A model generated the notes under the pieces. The model was not told the DNA's origin. It ran no database searches and saw nothing but the letters and a program-made list of their open reading frames with translations. 14,358 nt of DNA. Origin: Rhodospirillaceae bacterium. GTDB lineage: Bacteria > Pseudomonadota > Alphaproteobacteria > UBA8366 > GCA-2717185. Each line of letters opens with the position of its first letter. Within the stretch, counting starts at the first letter, position 1. The stretch spans positions 28,695-43,052 of the forward strand of contig PBDC01000043.1 in the NCBI GenBank assembly GCA_002717185.1, in the 5' to 3' direction. Positions 7,570 to 14,358 of this stretch are shown one piece after another. The translations under genes were made by a program, and so were the position numbers.

Positions 7570-8934
7570 ATGGCGGGAAATCTCGACCTTAAAACACTGA
7601 CGGCGCTGATCAGAGCCGGGGATATAGATACGGTCCTGGTCTGTTTCCCGGATATGCAGGGGCGGCTGGTTGGCAAACGTATAACCGGCAATTTCTTTCT
7701 CGACCATGCTGTTAACGAGATGCATGTTTGTGACTATTTGCTGACCGTCGATATGGAGATGGAGCCGGTGCCGGGGTATCAGGCGGCGAGTTGGGATACC
7801 GGCTATGGCGATTTTGGGGTACGGCCTGATTTGGCGACGTTGCGGCGAGTTCCTTGGCTCGAGAGTACCGCCTTAGTGTTGGGTGACTGTGTCGATCATG
7901 AGGGCAACGAGCTGGCGCACAGTCCGCGCGCCATTTTGAAACGCCAGATTGAACGGGCGGGGAAGGTCGGGCTTGCGATCAAGATGGGCTCGGAACTGGA
8001 ATTTTACATCTTCGACGAGAGCTACGTTTCGGCTTCCGATAAGGGCTACCGGAACCTGCAGACTGTCGGTCGATATATCGAGGACTATCACATCTTCCAG
8101 ACGACCAAGGAGGAACCACTGATCCGTGCTATCCGCAACGGTATGGAAGGCGCTGCAGTGCCGGTTGAATTCTCCAAGGGCGAGTGGGGGCCGGGCCAAG
8201 CAGAGATCAATCTGCGTTACGCTGACGCCCTGGAAATGGCCGACCGCCATGTCATCTACAAGAATGGCGTCAAAGAAATCGCTTGGCAGAAGGATAAGGC
8301 TGTAACCTTCATGGCAAAATTCCGCGACGATCTGGCGGGAAATTCCTGCCACATCCACTCCTCTATATGGGATGTGGTAGACGGATCGTCCCGATGTGAG
8401 GATCGTGATGGTGAGAACAGCCTTTCCGAGACGTTCCGTCAGTGGACTGCCGGTCAATTGTCCCTGACCGATGCAATGACGCTTTTCTTCGCGCCATCGA
8501 TCAACGCTTATAAGCGCTTCCAGGCGGGCTCCTTTGCACCAACTCGGATCGCCTGGAGCCGCGATAACCGAACCTCTGGTTACCGTCTGGTAGGGCAAGG
8601 CGACAGTTTGCGGGGCGAATGCCGAATTCCGGGCGCAGATTGCAATCCCTATTTGGCATTTGCAGCGCTGATAGCCGCCGGACTATACGGTATCGAACAC
8701 AGCCTGGATCCTGGCCCGCTGATGGTGGGCAATATTTATGACCGCGATGACATTGAGAGGGTCCCGATGAATTTGCGCGATGCGATTGCAGCGTTAGACC
8801 GGAGTGAGGCGATGCGGGCAGCCTTTGGCGATGCGGTAATCGAGCATTATCTGCACGCTGCGCGTTGGGAGCAGTCGGAGCATGACCGTCAAGTAACCGA
8901 CCTGGAACGCTGTCGTATGTTCGAGCGCGGCTGA
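7570..8934 (+). CDS. Glutamine-synthetase-like ligase, probably gamma-glutamyl-amine synthetase
   Basis: A 454-residue protein of the glutamine synthetase superfamily, similar in length and style to PuuA/GlnA-like ligases that join glutamate to an organic amine with ATP. The N-terminal beta-grasp part ([16 protein letters not shown]) is followed by the catalytic domain with E142 and E144 in SELEFYIFD, the metal and glutamate motif [11 protein letters not shown] (207-217), and the ATP-site histidines in [16 protein letters not shown] and [17 protein letters not shown] (349-364) complete the active site. True GlnA adenylylation features were not seen. The next gene, an aldehyde dehydrogenase, starts on its last stop base, which is how PuuA-PuuC-like modules are often arranged. 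The likely role is making a gamma-glutamyl-amide for later oxidation. The amine is unknown, and no gamma-glutamyl hydrolase gene is in the window. Confidence 0.86.
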
Positions 8935-10325
8935 TGGTCGATTTACTGCATTGCATCTCGCCAGTCGATGGCAGCGTTTTTGTCGAACGTCCGATTGCCG
9001 ATGAACAGGAAATTTCGGCAGCGATCGCGCGCGCGCAGGATGCCACCGCTGCATGGCGCGCTCTGACCATCCTCGACCGTCAATCGATCCTGTCTTCAGC
9101 TGCCGAATTTCTCGAATCGGAGACAGACGAGGTAGCACTCGAACTGACTTGGCAGATGGGGCGCCCGACGCACCAGGCCCGGGGTGAACTCCTGGGATTT
9201 GCCGAGCGGGCGCGCCATATGACGTATATTGCCAACGAGGCGCTGGTCGATATCGAGACCGATTATCTGCCGGGTTTCAATCGTTTCATCCGTCGGGAAC
9301 CGGTTGGGCTCGTTCTCGTCGTTGCTCCTTGGAATTATCCTTATCTGACGGCGGTCAACGCAGTTTGGCCAGCACTACTGGCTGGCAATACGGTGATCCT
9401 CAAACATTCACACCAGACGCCACTCTGCTCGGAGCGTTTCGCGTCCGCGATGGCTCGGGCAGGCGTGCCGGATGGGGTCTTCCAGCCGCTGCATCTGTCC
9501 CATGAGGGGACGGCCGCATTAATGCAACATAACGATGTCGGCTTCGTCGCCTTCACCGGTTCTTTGGCCGGAGGTCTCGCGGTGCAGCAGGCCATGACCG
9601 GGCGGCTCATCGGTGTGGGGCTCGAACTAGGCGGCAAAGATCCTGCTTATGTGAGGCACGATGCCGATATCGATCACGCGGTCACCGAGCTTGCCTCTGG
9701 CGCTTTTTTCAATTCAGGACAGTCCTGCTGTGGGATTGAGCGGATATATGTGCACGAAAACGTATACGAGGATTTTGCAGCCAGGCTGATCCTCGCGGCT
9801 CGGGGTCTTGAACTGGGTGATCCGCGGCGCGAGACGACAACCATAGGGCCTATGGTGCGGCCCGCGGCGGCAGACTTCGTGCGCGGCCAGATTGCTGAGG
9901 CAGTGCGGGCTGGAGCGCGGCCGATGGTCGATCCGAATACCTACCGTCTGGACCGCGAAGGGTCGGCCTATAAATCGCCACAGGTCCTGGTGAATGTGAC
10001 CCATGAAATGCGAGTGATGACAGAGGAGAGTTTTGGTCCAGTCGTCGGCATCATGAAGGTTCGCAGCGACGAAGAGGCCATCGCACTGATGAACGACAGC
10101 GACTACGGGCTGACGGCAGCGATCTGGACCAGCGACGAGGAAGCCGCGATCTCAGTCGGCGAGCGGGTGGATACCGGTACCTGGTTCATGAACCGCTGTG
10201 ACTATCTTGATCCGGAGCTGGCATGGAGCGGTGTGAAGAACTCCGGCTACGGCTGCAGTCTTTCGACAGTCGGATATGAGCAACTCACCCGGCCGAAATC
10301 TTTCCACTTGAGGATCACGACGTGA
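8934..10325 (+). CDS. NAD(P)-dependent aldehyde dehydrogenase
   Basis: A 463-residue aldehyde dehydrogenase that oxidises an aldehyde to the acid or acyl product in the cytoplasm. Visible residues: N134 in APWNYPY, K157 in ILKHSHQTP (usually K-P-S-E, so the P and E are His here), the cofactor motif FTGSLAGG (207-214), E231 in LELGGKDP and the nucleophile C265 in FNSGQSCC, which has a second adjacent Cys. The later EESFGPVVG motif is also intact. The start codon shares one base with the ligase stop (TGATG), indicating translational coupling. The stop in turn overlaps the GTG of the decayed alcohol dehydrogenase (GTGA). The pairing suggests it oxidises the aldehyde formed from a gamma-glutamylated amine, or from the alcohol once made by the lost dehydrogenase. 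Subfamily and substrate cannot be decided here. Confidence 0.9.
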   Translation: MVDLLHCISPVDGSVFVERPIADEQEISAAIARAQDATAAWRALTILDRQSILSSAAEFLESETDEVALELTWQMGRPTHQARGELLGFAERARHMTYIANEALVDIETDYLPGFNRFIRREPVGLVLVVAPWNYPYLTAVNAVWPALLAGNTVILKHSHQTPLCSERFASAMARAGVPDGVFQPLHLSHEGTAALMQHNDVGFVAFTGSLAGGLAVQQAMTGRLIGVGLELGGKDPAYVRHDADIDHAVTELASGAFFNSGQSCCGIERIYVHENVYEDFAARLILAARGLELGDPRRETTTIGPMVRPAAADFVRGQIAEAVRAGARPMVDPNTYRLDREGSAYKSPQVLVNVTHEMRVMTEESFGPVVGIMKVRSDEEAIALMNDSDYGLTAAIWTSDEEAAISVGERVDTGTWFMNRCDYLDPELAWSGVKNSGYGCSLSTVGYEQLTRPKSFHLRITT

Positions 10326-10608
10326 TCCATCCTGCGACCTTGCGGGACGATTGGAATTACCCGACGCAAAGGCTCGGCCGTATTCTTGGCGTTGAAGACC
10401 CATCTTTCTATGGCGTAATGGAGTGGCTGATCGGTCTGGCTGGACATTGGGTATTCCGGAACCGCTGGGCGCGTTTGACGTGCTGGATAACGAAAGAGCG
10501 CGGGTCGCCGCCGGTGCGATCGATCCCACGGCGGGGACCTAACCTAGAACACTCGATCCGGGGAACCTCGATAGCCTTTTCCTGAATTGCTTGCGAGGGA
10601 CATTGTGA
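10322..10608 (+). pseudogene. Iron-containing alcohol dehydrogenase remnant: internal deletion, frameshift, nonsense codon
   Basis: The GTG at 10322 overlaps the aldehyde dehydrogenase stop and begins IHPATLRDDWNYPT, a start typical of group III iron-dependent alcohol dehydrogenases. Near 10367 it passes directly into the family's C-terminal part, RLGRILGVEDPSFYGVMEWL. After LA, one base is missing near 10442; from 10444 the next frame continues with TLGIPEPLGAFDVLDNERAR and AAGAIDPTAGT. A TAA at 10540-10542 interrupts it, and the same frame then gives PRTLDPGNLDSLFLNCLRGT to a final TGA at 10606-10608. AIDPTAGT-x-PRTL corresponds to the usual DPSAGGNPxPL ending. About 290 of roughly 380 residues are gone, including the metal-binding middle, so the gene is dead. 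It was once the third gene of the ligase-aldehyde dehydrogenase operon. Confidence 0.85.
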
Positions 10609-10618
10609 AGGAAATCCT

Positions 10619-11080
10619 ATGACCATAATGTTGGAGCCGATTGCCTATGTAATCGGTGGACGGGAAAAACCAACGGATGATGATTGGGCCAGGGAGCGCG
10701 CAGTTATCCAGCTTGACGAGACGCGTTTTACGGCTGAAGCAATAGAGGGCCTTGATAGTTTCTCTCATATCGAAGTGGTGTTTCATTTCAACAAAGTTCC
10801 GGAAAATAAGGTGCAATATGGGGCGCGGCATCCACGCGACAACACCCGGTGGCCGAAGCTTGGCATCTTCGCTCAACGCGGCAAGAACCGACCGAACCGT
10901 ATCGGTGTGACGGTGTGTCAACTGCTGAAACACGAGGGCACGAGGTTGGAGGTCGCTGGGCTTGATGCCATCGATGGGACGCCGGTCCTCGACATCAAAC
11001 CTTTTATGCGCGATTTCGCACCCCGCGGTGAAATCCGCGAACCGTTCTGGGTTGGGGAATTGATGGCTGGATACTGGTGA
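10619..11080 (+). CDS. TrmO/TsaA-family protein, single beta-barrel domain
   Basis: A 153-residue protein of the TrmO (YaeB/TsaA) family. E. coli TrmO uses S-adenosylmethionine to N6-methylate the threonylcarbamoyladenosine at position 37 of tRNA. Family features: PIAYVIGGR at the start, LDSFSHIEVVFHF (51-63), and the hallmark KNRPNRIGVTVCQL (102-115), followed by GTPVLDIKPFM. It has only the conserved barrel and lacks the C-terminal domain of the longer E. coli protein, as many stand-alone family members do. GAAGGAAA before the ATG supports the start. It lies 10 bases after the alcohol dehydrogenase remnant and 50 bases before mtnA, inside a catabolic operon, which is odd for a housekeeping tRNA modifier. 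It may methylate a small molecule or supply SAM by-products to the MtnA step; this is speculation. Confidence 0.8.
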   Translation: MTIMLEPIAYVIGGREKPTDDDWARERAVIQLDETRFTAEAIEGLDSFSHIEVVFHFNKVPENKVQYGARHPRDNTRWPKLGIFAQRGKNRPNRIGVTVCQLLKHEGTRLEVAGLDAIDGTPVLDIKPFMRDFAPRGEIREPFWVGELMAGYW

Positions 11081-11130
11081 TCGGCTGAACATCTTGGTAT
11101 GAAAGTATACGGAACTGAAGGGACCATTAC

Positions 11131-12222
11131 ATGCTGGTGAGCGGCGTTGCGTATCGTACGATCTGGGTCGCCGAAGATGGTTTAACAGTCGAGATAATCG
11201 ACCAGACAAAACTGCCCCACCTATTTGAAACCGTTAAATTAAAATCCGTCGAAGACGTCGCGCGAGCTATCAAGGTGATGCAGGTCCGCGGCGCGCCGTT
11301 GATTGGAGCGACGGCCGGTTACGGTATGGCCTTGGCGATGCGGAGTGATGCCAGCGATGTGGCTGCGCGCGCTGCCAGGGACCTGTTGATGAATACGCGC
11401 CCGACGGCGGTCAATCTGCGCTGGGCGCTGGATGAAATGACAAATTTTTTACTACGTCTGCCAGAGGGGGAACGCCGGGATGCGGCCTATCAGCGCGCTG
11501 CGGAAATCTGTGACGACGACGTTGGTATCAATGAGGGAATAGGCAATTATGGCATTGACCTGATCCGAGCAGCGTCGGAGGCGAAGGGTGGCGCGCCAGT
11601 TAACATACTCACGCATTGCAATGCGGGTTGGCTAGCTACCGTCGATTGGGGGACCGCCACAGCGCCGATCTACCGCGCTCATGACGAAGACATACCCGTG
11701 CATGTTTGGGTCGACGAGACGCGACCACGCAATCAAGGCGCCAGCTTGACCGCCTGGGAGTTGGGGCATCACGGAGTGCCGCATACGGTGATTGTCGATA
11801 GTGCCGGCGGCCATTTGATGCAGCATGGCGACGTTGACCTGTGCATCGTTGGCAGCGACCGGACGACGGGGGCGGGCGACGTTTGCAATAAGATTGGTAC
11901 CTATCTGAAGGCGCTCGCGGCGCATGATAATGGTGTGCCTTTTTATGTTGGACTACCGTCGCCGACCATCGACTGGACTTTGGCGGATGGTGTCGCAGAA
12001 ATACCAATCGAACAACGCGACGGTGCGGAAGTGTTCGAGATGACGGGCCGCACCGAGAACGGTACGATTGAAACTGTGAAGATCACACCCGATGGCAGCG
12101 ATGTTGCGAACTATGCGTTTGACGTGACGCCGGCGCGCCTAGTCACCGGCCTTATTACGGAACGCGGAATCGCCACTCCCAGCCGCGAAGGTTTGCTCGA
12201 TTTGTTTCCCGAAAGACGATGA
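11131..12222 (+). CDS. mtnA: S-methyl-5-thioribose-1-phosphate isomerase (MtnA) family
   Basis: A 363-residue aldose-1-phosphate isomerase of the MtnA/eIF2B-alpha-like family. MtnA converts 5-methylthioribose-1-phosphate to the ribulose-1-phosphate form; close relatives act on 5-deoxyribose-1-phosphate. Conserved pieces: the phosphate-binding RGAPLIGA (53-60), the catalytic C163 in [24 protein letters not shown] (194-211), the catalytic D243 in GSDR and the NKIGTY motif (253-258). [10 protein letters not shown] differs from the common GADRIAANGD and may reflect another substrate or lineage. The start is supported by AAGGGA eight bases upstream. The next gene, an aldolase-dehydrogenase fusion, begins nine bases after its stop, so the isomerase product is very likely the aldolase substrate. 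The methionine-salvage genes mtnB, mtnC and mtnD are not seen, nor any phosphorylase or methylthioribose kinase that would make its substrate. Confidence 0.88.
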
Positions 12223-12231
12223 GACGACAAT

Positions 12232-14280
12232 ATGGATAGCCTTTGGTCGACAAACGAAGCGGACTTGTTTGTTTCGCAATACGCTGATGACGGCGTAAAC
12301 CAGGATCTGGCGCTGCGTGTATACACTAGCCGTTTGCTGGGCAGTGATCCGAGGCTTGTTTTGCATGGCGGCGGCAACACGTCAGTCAAAACGATACAGA
12401 CTGACATCGTCGGCGAAGCGGTGGATGTCCTTTGCGTCAAGGGTAGCGGCTGGGACCTAGGGGATATAGAACCGGCAGGATTGCCTGCGGTTCGGCTGGA
12501 TCCTCTGCTGCGGCTGGAAGCGCTCGACAAGTTGAGCGACGAGGATATGGTCAATGTCCAGCGCGGTAATTTGCTCGACAGCACGGCACCAAACCCTTCG
12601 GTTGAGACACTGCTGCACGCTTTCCTTCCGCATAAATTTATCGATCACACCCATTCCACCGCGATCTTGAGTGTCAGCGACCAACTCGACGGTGAGGACG
12701 TATGTGCCGAAATATTTGGCGATAGCATGGGATCTGTGCCCTATATAATGCCGGGGTTTGCGTTGGCTAAGAGCGCCGCCTCGATCTATCGGCGAAATCC
12801 GGATGTCGGCGGATTGATCCTGCACAAGCACGGCATTTTTACTTTCGGAGACAGTGCGCAAGAAGCATACGAACGTATGATCGATGCTGTGACCGTGGCT
12901 GAAGAGAGATTACAAAAAGGTCGTAAATCGGTTTTTGTCGCTGCAGAACTGTCGCCGAATATTGCTGCGATTGCCGATGTTGCGCCAATCATACGTGGTC
13001 TTGCGGCAACGGATCTGGGTGATGGGTCGTGGCGGCGCATGATGTTGGACTTCCGCACTCGGCCAGAGATTATGAATTACGTAAACGGGGCGGAAGTCGG
13101 ACGCTACAGTCAGGTCGGTGTTGTGACACCGGACCACAATATTCGTATCAAGAACACACCGGTGCTACTGCCTGCGCCTGAGGCTGGCAAGTTGGACGAC
13201 TTTCGTGAAGGAGCAGCAGCGGCCTTCGCGAGTTTCGCCGACGCCTATCGCGATTATTTTGCGCGGCACAATGCAAGGCAAGAACGGCCAAAGACGCCGC
13301 TAGATCCGTTGCCGCGGGTCGCACTGGTACCCGGCCTCGGATTGTTCGGAATTGGGGATAGCCTAAAATCCGCCTCTGTTGCTGGCGACCTGGCGGAAAA
13401 TACAGTGGATACGATCACCGATGCGGAAGCGATCGGGGTCTATGAGTGTGTAGCCGAGGCCGATATGTTCGACATTGAATATTGGTCGCTGGAGCAAGCC
13501 AAGCTGGGCAAAGGCGCTGAAAAGCCGCTGGCACGACAGATCGTGGTAATCACCGGCGCTGGCGGTGCGATCGGACAGGCTATGGCCCGAGCGTTTGCGG
13601 CTGATGGCGCGACAATCGCTGCTCTGGATATAAATAGTGATACGGCGGCTGGGGGACTTGACGGGATCGCCGGTGCGCCTTTCACCTGTGATGTCACCAA
13701 CTCGAATTCGGTAGAGTTGGCGTTTAATCAGATTTGCGAATGCTTTGGCGGCGTTGACGTGGTTGTTTCTAATGCCGGCGCGGCATGGAGTGGGCGGATC
13801 GGTGATGTTAGCGCCGAAGTTCTGCGGGAATCCTTCGAACTCAACTTCTTCGCTCATCAGTCAGTCGCTCAGTCGGCGGTCAAGGTCATGCGGGCGCAAG
13901 GGACCGGTGGAGCATTGCTGTTCAATACGTCGAAACAGGCAGTCAATCCGGGCCCTGATTTTGGTCCCTACGGTTTGCCCAAAGCCGCTACCATGTCATT
14001 GGTTCGACAGTACGCGGTTGATCATGGTGCCGAAGGCATTCGGGCCAATGCCGTCAATGCGGATCGCATTCGCAGCGGTTTATTGGACGATGATATGATT
14101 GCGGCTCGAGCTGAAGCGCGCGGTGTCAGCGAGATCGACTACATGGCCGGCAATCTGCTGCATCAGGAAGTTCGCGCCGAAGATGTTGCGGATGCATTCG
14201 TCTATCTAGCGAAAGCGGAGCGCACGACCGCGGCTGTCGTGACCGTCGATGGTGGCAACATTGCCGCCGCGCTCCGATAG
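12232..14280 (+). CDS. Class II aldolase fused to short-chain dehydrogenase
   Basis: A 682-residue two-domain protein laid out like the rhizobial rhamnulose-phosphate aldolase/lactaldehyde dehydrogenase (RhaD/E type). Residues about 25-400 are a class II zinc aldolase: LHGGGNTSVK (44-53), probable catalytic E125 in PSVETLLH, and zinc ligands H139 and H141 in DHTHS and H200 in KHGIF. Residues about 435-682 are an SDR: TGAGGAIG (441-448), D466 favouring NAD(H), NAG (514-516), S567, Y580 and K584. Unlike the aldolase-like protein at 645, the catalytic acid is present. The aldolase would split a ketose-1-phosphate to dihydroxyacetone phosphate and an aldehyde, which the SDR domain then oxidises or reduces. 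No rha genes are near; the adjacent mtnA points to a 5-substituted or 5-deoxy ribulose-1-phosphate. The ribosome binding site is weak, suggesting coupling to mtnA. Confidence 0.9.
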   Translation: MDSLWSTNEADLFVSQYADDGVNQDLALRVYTSRLLGSDPRLVLHGGGNTSVKTIQTDIVGEAVDVLCVKGSGWDLGDIEPAGLPAVRLDPLLRLEALDKLSDEDMVNVQRGNLLDSTAPNPSVETLLHAFLPHKFIDHTHSTAILSVSDQLDGEDVCAEIFGDSMGSVPYIMPGFALAKSAASIYRRNPDVGGLILHKHGIFTFGDSAQEAYERMIDAVTVAEERLQKGRKSVFVAAELSPNIAAIADVAPIIRGLAATDLGDGSWRRMMLDFRTRPEIMNYVNGAEVGRYSQVGVVTPDHNIRIKNTPVLLPAPEAGKLDDFREGAAAAFASFADAYRDYFARHNARQERPKTPLDPLPRVALVPGLGLFGIGDSLKSASVAGDLAENTVDTITDAEAIGVYECVAEADMFDIEYWSLEQAKLGKGAEKPLARQIVVITGAGGAIGQAMARAFAADGATIAALDINSDTAAGGLDGIAGAPFTCDVTNSNSVELAFNQICECFGGVDVVVSNAGAAWSGRIGDVSAEVLRESFELNFFAHQSVAQSAVKVMRAQGTGGALLFNTSKQAVNPGPDFGPYGLPKAATMSLVRQYAVDHGAEGIRANAVNADRIRSGLLDDDMIAARAEARGVSEIDYMAGNLLHQEVRAEDVADAFVYLAKAERTTAAVVTVDGGNIAAALR

Positions 14281-14305
14281 AATTCGTGTTTTGCCAAGGA
14301 AGGGA

Positions 14306-14358
14306 ATGAAAAGTGCGACGACTGCTGCTATTGATCGGGTTCGTGTGGGGAATTATTT
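14306..14358 (+). CDS. Start of a further gene, cut by window edge; possibly a transporter
   Basis: Two starts compete just before the edge. The ATG at 14306 has AAGGA five bases upstream and reads MKSATTAAIDRVRVGNY; a GNYRW-type entry to the first membrane helix occurs in sugar-acid MFS transporters, which would suit this operon. The GTG at 14313 is in another frame and reads like a signal peptide or membrane helix (RRLLLLIGFVWGII). With at most 17 codons visible the choice is open. It begins 25 bases after the fusion gene stop in the same direction, so it probably belongs to the same operon. Confidence 0.4.
   Translation, partial: MKSATTAAIDRVRVGNY

Follow-up and report, generated by a model that had tools for sequence, protein, structure and literature searches.

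The dihydroxyacetone phosphate (DHAP) shunt, also described as 5-deoxyribose disposal, is known from R. rubrum, R. palustris, E. coli ATCC 25922 and B. thuringiensis, and uses MtnP or MtnK (DrdK), MtnA (DrdI) and the aldolase Ald2 (DrdA). The accessible text of the DHAP-shunt papers describes this aldolase as a stand-alone protein. RhaEW (RhaD, TIGR02632), which joins a rhamnulose-1-phosphate aldolase to a lactaldehyde dehydrogenase, has orthologues that always lie within rhamnose loci, according to the available sections of PMC3870299. We analysed 14,358 nucleotides from a Rhodospirillaceae bacterium (contig PBDC01000043.1; this whole stretch is referred to as the window), in which a gene for an MtnA-type isomerase is followed by a gene for a fusion of a class II aldolase and a short-chain dehydrogenase (SDR). 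Judged from protein families and genome context, the pair very probably encodes a DHAP-shunt variant, with a RhaEW-like aldolase-dehydrogenase in the place of Ald2 that both releases the aldehyde and processes it within one chain. The look-alike family to which the window fusion belongs is not confined to rhamnose loci, as the sample counts below show. The original prediction, that the isomerase gene ends nine bases before the fusion gene, was confirmed by the open reading frames (ORFs). The features of the pair are as follows.

11131-12222, + strand: MtnA-type isomerase, ORF of 363 aa, TIGR00512
12223-12231, + strand: gap of 9 bases between mtnA and the fusion gene
12232-14280, + strand: bifunctional class II aldolase-SDR, ORF of 682 aa, NF006192
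12232-12915, + strand: aldolase domain, residues 1-228
12646-12654, + strand: HxH motif, H139/H141, predicted metal ligands together with H200 (12829-12831), with E125 and H129 nearby
13522-14277, + strand: SDR domain, residues 431-682, with TGxxxxxG at 441-448, D466, NAG at 514-516 and N538-S567-Y580-K584
13930-13983, + strand: subfamily signature SKQAVNPG...YGLPK around S567-Y580-K584, taken from alignments

The 363-aa protein passed the TIGR00512 salvage_mtnA model (407.2 bits, cut-off 279) and had 62% identity with MtnA from an E. coli mtnK-mtnA-aldolase locus (L137; L and G numbers are our labels for loci and genomes). Its solved structural relatives, 1t9k and 6a34, are both named methylthioribose-1-phosphate isomerase. 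The motifs THCNAG (residues 161-166) and GSDRT (241-245) were present, and we take the Cys of the former and the Asp of the latter to be the known catalytic residues of MtnA. The protein is thus predicted to be a 5-methylthioribose-1-phosphate/5-deoxyribose-1-phosphate isomerase. The fusion passed NF006192, "bifunctional aldolase/short-chain dehydrogenase" (PRK08324.1-6), over residues 1-682 with 1048.5 bits (cut-off 639), and fell under the cut-off of the TIGR02632 RhaD model (462.5 versus 567.75 bits). The catalytic residues of both domains, which had been read from the window alone, were present and invariant in an alignment of 56 fusions linked to MtnA, MtnK or MtnP, the window among them. 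H139, H141, H200, E125 and H129 were identical in 56/56 rows and D466 was likewise kept; the metal role of the three histidines is assumed from class II aldolases. An AlphaFold2 model of the fusion had a mean pLDDT of 86.8 and a pTM of 0.87.

The distribution of the fusion was determined in an even sample of 289 genomes of Alphaproteobacteria (the class of the genome of L008, the nearest relative fetched), which were not picked by gene adjacency. All p-values are descriptive only, the genomes being related. The fusion scores fell into two groups with none between, one of 50 genomes at 725 bits or more (window-type) and one of 11 genes at 475 bits or less (rhamnose-type). MtnA was matched in 47/50 genomes with a window-type fusion versus 86/239 others (Fisher p = 4e-15). 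It lay within 5 kb of the fusion in 28/50, and in all 28 it was upstream and on the same strand. The rhizobial-type rhamnose isomerase, RhaI, was found in 0/50 genomes with a window-type fusion. In the nine genomes that carried only a rhamnose-type fusion, RhaI lay within about 5 kb in 9/9 (two below the cut-off), and MtnA was found in 1/9. The two remaining low-scoring genes were second copies in window-type genomes, with neither MtnA nor RhaI beside them.

Conservation of the pair outside the window genome, which the original prediction proposed to check, was also established by a contig scan with an 18-row alignment, from which the best 80 of at least 593 relatives were kept (L008-L087; 56-70% identical over the best segment). 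MtnA lay within 10 kb of the fusion in 39/80 loci, and MtnA, MtnP or MtnK in 42/80, some contigs being short. Among loci with at least 5 kb of upstream DNA, one of the three was near the fusion in 37/63. In the genomes of 50 of the 80 loci (G001-G050), which were searched for pathway genes, MtnA was above the cut-off in 48, MtnP in 33 and MtnK in nine. Since no genome was in both the MtnP and the MtnK lists, exactly one entry enzyme was above the cut-off in 42/50. Most relatives therefore had the MTA (methylthioadenosine) phosphorylase or methylthioribose kinase that was expected among the neighbours, in the locus or elsewhere in the genome. MtnD was above the cut-off in 1/50 (28.7 bits), and any match to it was found in 4/50. 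Five genomes (G001, G012, G015, G031 and G032) belonged to both the even sample and these 50. MtnP and MtnK, never found together here, would be two alternative entries to the same pathway.

Two layouts recurred. The first, mtnP-mtnA-fusion (L009, L022, L059, L092, L101), was found mostly in contigs of Rhodospirillales, Rhodospirillaceae or Alphaproteobacteria, with one from Longimicrobiales (L083). The second, in Rhizobiales, was regulator, fusion, ABC sugar transporter, mtnK and mtnA (L001, L002, L005, L054, L065 and others). The regulator of the rhizobial cluster and its counterpart in the E. coli mtnK-mtnA-aldolase locus shared 31% identity (E = 8e-49), and both carry Pfam Sugar-bind. The importer and the related regulator suggest that an external sugar, methylthioribose or 5-deoxyribose taken from outside the cell, may be used there. 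An arrangement like that of the window, with mtnA immediately upstream of the fusion, was found in Ruegeria sp. AD91A. In L008, mtnA and the fusion are preceded by a glutamine-synthetase-like gene, an iron alcohol dehydrogenase and a decayed TrmO piece. Clustering of neighbours by ORF prediction was noisy in the GC-rich DNA and was used solely for choosing genes to name.

The aldolase of the E. coli L137 locus was used as the Ald2 query; gene names in that locus were assigned in this analysis. It is a class II aldolase and scored in the fuculose-aldolase subfamily, as expected for Ald2/DrdA. It gave no BLASTP match to the window fusion at E = 1e-3. An Ald2-like protein (E = 1e-25 or better) was found in 81/289 sample genomes. 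Of the 133 genomes with any MtnA match (126 of them above the cut-off), 43 had the fusion alone and 70 an Ald2-like protein alone; both were present in 4 and neither in 16 (p = 1e-16). The MtnA match was only weak or partial in five of the genomes with neither. Expressed differently, an Ald2-like protein was present in 4/47 genomes with fusion and MtnA versus 70/86 with MtnA and no fusion. In 53 genomes, MtnA and the Ald2-like gene were no more than 5 kb apart; the fusion was present in just one of these, where the Ald2-like gene was beside a second, weak copy of MtnA. The fusion and the Ald2-like aldolase are thus nearly mutually exclusive, with one largely taking the place of the other from genome to genome. 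A tree of 118 MtnA proteins was built from 43/43 fusion-only genomes, 69/70 Ald2-only genomes, 2/4 with both, the window, L001, L004 and E. coli. The best tree had 23 partner changes versus about 37 in shuffles and, on this tree, the partner pattern is not that of one lineage.

The pathway that we infer builds on computed observations, namely the gene pair, the intact catalytic residues, the partnership with MtnA, MtnP and MtnK, the separation from rhamnose isomerase and the near-exclusion with an Ald2-like aldolase; its substrates, products, channelling and SDR direction are given here as predictions. MTA and 5'-deoxyadenosine, by-products of S-adenosylmethionine (SAM), would be converted to 5-methylthioribose-1-phosphate and 5-deoxyribose-1-phosphate by MtnP, or by a nucleosidase and MtnK, encoded next door or elsewhere in the genomes of the relatives. 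MtnA would convert the 1-phosphate to the ribulose-1-phosphate form, and the aldolase domain would split this into DHAP and either 2-(methylthio)acetaldehyde or acetaldehyde. Within the same polypeptide, the NAD-type SDR domain would then act on the aldehyde, most likely turning it into the acid in the manner of RhaEW. The fusion would stand in for the stand-alone Ald2/DrdA and a separate dehydrogenase. As originally predicted, a DHAP-shunt variant with a fused aldolase-SDR is supported by the conservation of the pair elsewhere, its linkage to MtnP and MtnK, the lack of RhaI in 50 sample genomes and the near-exclusion with Ald2.

Several results weigh against this reading. No MtnP or MtnK was found within the window, and neither was above the cut-off in 8/50 scan genomes. 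In the even sample, MtnA was beyond 5 kb of the fusion in 22/50 genomes, was only fragmentary in G148 and G247, and had no match in 3/50. MtnD was above the Pfam cut-off in 20/289 sample genomes (12 at 65 bits or more), among them 8/50 with the fusion (6 of these also at 65 bits or more), which shows that the fusion and the classical salvage pathway can occur side by side in some genomes. RhaI was above the cut-off in 5/50 scan genomes and RhaA in 1/50. No mtn gene was near the fusion in a Reyranella-like clade or in L003, L093 and L095 (Rhizobium/Ensifer). The supported branches of the MtnA tree alone force 2-4 partner switches, and the number of independent swaps is therefore uncertain. Given the fuculose-aldolase subfamily score of the Ald2 query, Ald2-like hits that are not near MtnA may represent fuculose aldolases. 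In the model of the fusion, the SDR loop 570-579 was predicted poorly (pLDDT below 50).

The adjacency of mtnA and the fusion could in principle be that of two unrelated metabolic genes brought together by chance, and its not being universal in the sample agrees with this. The 28 adjacent pairs with a single orientation in a divergent sample and the co-occurrence of the two genes already refute the idea by the counts, and we give it practically no weight. The fusion could also be an ordinary RhaEW, acting on rhamnulose-1-phosphate and lactaldehyde beside an incidental mtnA. It has the same domain order and belongs to a distant common family; C. aurantiacus and B. subtilis RhaEW have rhamnulose-1-phosphate aldolase and lactaldehyde dehydrogenase activities (available sections of PMC3870299); and JGI names many of the close relatives listed "rhamnose utilization protein RhaD". 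However, the window fusion lies under the TIGR02632 cut-off, the sample scores of the two types do not overlap, and in the sample RhaI accompanies every fusion in the rhamnose-type-only genomes and none in the window-type genomes. The two types form separate clades, and rhamnose-type rows differ around S567-Y580-K584 (for example SKNGLAAS...YCTAK in L088). A rhamnose role was rejected on the combined evidence of the cut-off, the neighbouring genes, the tree and the differing residues, and we hold an ordinary RhaEW to be very improbable. Another sugar phosphate could be the substrate of both enzymes, such as ribose-1-phosphate, with ribulose-1-phosphate cleaved to DHAP and glycolaldehyde. Class II aldolases are promiscuous, according to the accessible parts of PMC6302742 and PMC6079011, and proteins related to the fusion, or to its aldolase part, are found in other contexts (L003, L093, L139). 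Against it stand the genomic association with MTA phosphorylase, with methylthioribose kinase and with a regulator resembling the one in the E. coli locus, as well as the exchange with the Ald2-like aldolase; we hold it improbable, though somewhat less so than the rhamnose role.

The evidence on the direction of the SDR step in the DHAP-shunt variant is divided. In the sections of PMC3870299 that were available, RhaEW oxidises lactaldehyde with NAD+ and no reductase activity was seen, which favours oxidation by its relative in the window. D466 would favour NAD(H), the more usual cofactor for oxidation. With the SDR as a reductase, the same pathway would end in 2-(methylthio)ethanol or ethanol, the alcohols to which the known shunts lead in the accessible text of PMC5893883 and PMC10986504; the SDR would then match the separate alcohol dehydrogenase of those shunts. 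The window SDR has the ordinary N-S-Y-K set, whereas 4/4 rhamnose-type rows carry Leu in place of the Asn, and the characterised relatives of these rows oxidise. Reduction by the fusion is accordingly a credible minority reading, and by analogy with RhaEW we lean modestly towards oxidation. An oxidative DHAP shunt as a whole, in which the SDR makes (methylthio)acetate or acetate with NAD+ in the chain that forms the aldehyde, has in our estimate slightly less than an even chance. It would convert MTA and 5-deoxyribose, exogenous or endogenous, to DHAP, acetate and NADH in air. (Methylthio)acetate would be a sulfur intermediate absent from the salvage routes described in the accessible portions of the literature examined. 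In E. coli with the known shunt, carbon ends as ethanol in air (available sections of PMC10986504), and an oxidising fusion would avoid this loss.

The proposed variant resembles the known DHAP shunt in its MtnA-type isomerase, in a class II aldolase with intact catalytic residues that is predicted to yield DHAP and an aldehyde, and in the phosphorylase or kinase that most relatives encode in the locus or elsewhere in the genome, to which rhizobia add the related regulator and a transporter. It differs in that the aldolase is fused to an SDR and is not a close relative of Ald2. With RhaEW/RhaD, the window fusion shares the domain order, the aldolase His residues, the S-Y-K of the SDR and the NAD-type Asp, but it is only 30-35% identical, stands in a separate clade below the family cut-off, and its type occurs in sample genomes without rhamnose isomerase. 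Universal methionine salvage (MtnB, MtnC, MtnD, MtnE) also starts with MtnP or MtnK followed by MtnA; in contrast to it, MtnD is rare in fusion genomes and the MtnA product would be cleaved, not dehydrated. The MTA-isoprenoid shunt (RuBisCO-like protein, or RLP, and cupin) likewise uses MtnP and MtnA, and a RuBisCO-like gene follows mtnA in L001, L005 and L094; the fusion is of another enzyme class, and no RLP or cupin was found among the scanned window proteins.

No paper that joins the fusion to MtnA or MTA was found in a search of the open-licence literature, with subscription papers mostly outside it. If the proposed pathway is correct, a family labelled as rhamnose utilisation by some annotation would be a common handler of SAM by-products. 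The fusion occurs in about one in six sample genomes (50/289) and takes the place of the Ald2-like aldolase in about a third of MtnA carriers (43/133). The pathway would explain how most fusion genomes, having neither MtnD nor Ald2, complete it, and would provide a one-chain solution for a reactive aldehyde, with a new end product predicted.

Further relatives of the fusion were noted. The fusions of L003, L093 and L095 are about 52% identical, form a clade of their own and may have other substrates; the annotated neighbours in L003 are sugar transport and glycerol-phosphate genes, and those in L093 are an FGGY kinase and an iron alcohol dehydrogenase, while the L095 record carries no annotation. 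In S. meliloti, an aldolase-only relative (L139:6001-7251), 44% identical to window residues 1-425, closes an lsr-like autoinducer-2 (AI-2) operon (lsrK, a regulator, lsrA, two permeases and lsrB), and may act on an AI-2-derived phosphate. The second copies of the sample lie at L136:8222-10117 (G241) and G015:C13:47976-49889, with 447-459 bits; near the former, weak tblastn matches indicated ABC transporter genes and an FGGY-like kinase. A search for the fusion in phages gave no match at E = 1e-30. Structural comparison of the aldolase domain was with PDB 3m4r only, its top match in a list mostly of SDR matches. This structure is a domain described as N-terminal in a Thermoplasma acidophilum protein, and similar fusions may therefore exist in archaea. 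In the Rhizobiales loci L001:20318-23375, L005, L057, L065, L082 and L094, mtnA is followed by two transketolase-like halves (DXPS-like N-terminal and transketolase C-terminal) and a RuBisCO-like gene, which may point to another route for the product of MtnA.

The gene immediately before the pair was the following.

10619-11080, + strand: TrmO-like gene, ORF of 153 aa, PF01980, judged to be outside the pathway

The original prediction had placed a TrmO-family gene here and linked it to the pathway through its use of SAM. The family assignment stood with Pfam TrmO_N (95.8, cut-off 26.8) and failed with TIGR00104 (83.7, cut-off 93.25). The link did not hold, as the neighbour was not conserved: a relaxed search of 138 loci found only a piece in L008 (about 8660-8896), a decayed TrmO gene with a large internal loss. 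This match of 39 residues was the sole one elsewhere, and TrmO was rejected as a pathway member.

Thirteen window proteins were profile-scanned in one or both family libraries. No MtnB, MtnC or MtnD (acireductone dioxygenase) was above the cut-off among them, in agreement with the absence noted at the outset, and no rhamnose isomerase was found within the window. The scan also covered genes for a class II aldolase-family protein, an SDR, a hydrolase, an enolase-superfamily enzyme, an Asp/Glu racemase-family protein, a glycerol kinase, a glutamine-synthetase-like enzyme and an aldehyde dehydrogenase. This second class II aldolase-family protein, at 645-1433 and far from mtnA, belongs to the PRK07044 subfamily (227.5 bits, cut-off 207) and scored 49 bits on MtnB, under the cut-off of 137. 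Rfam and tRNA searches of the window gave no match. A promoter and terminator scan of 10200-14358 gave no clear excess over shuffles, with 2 promoter-like sites (shuffles 2.2) and 5 terminator-like sites (shuffles 3.5, standard deviation 1.6). The glutamine-synthetase-like gene lies upstream of the pair in both the window (7570-10325 region) and L008 (6143-8630), and the two are 72% identical. The gene after it encodes an aldehyde dehydrogenase in the window and an iron alcohol dehydrogenase in L008, and these genes look like a set for the use of gamma-glutamyl amines.

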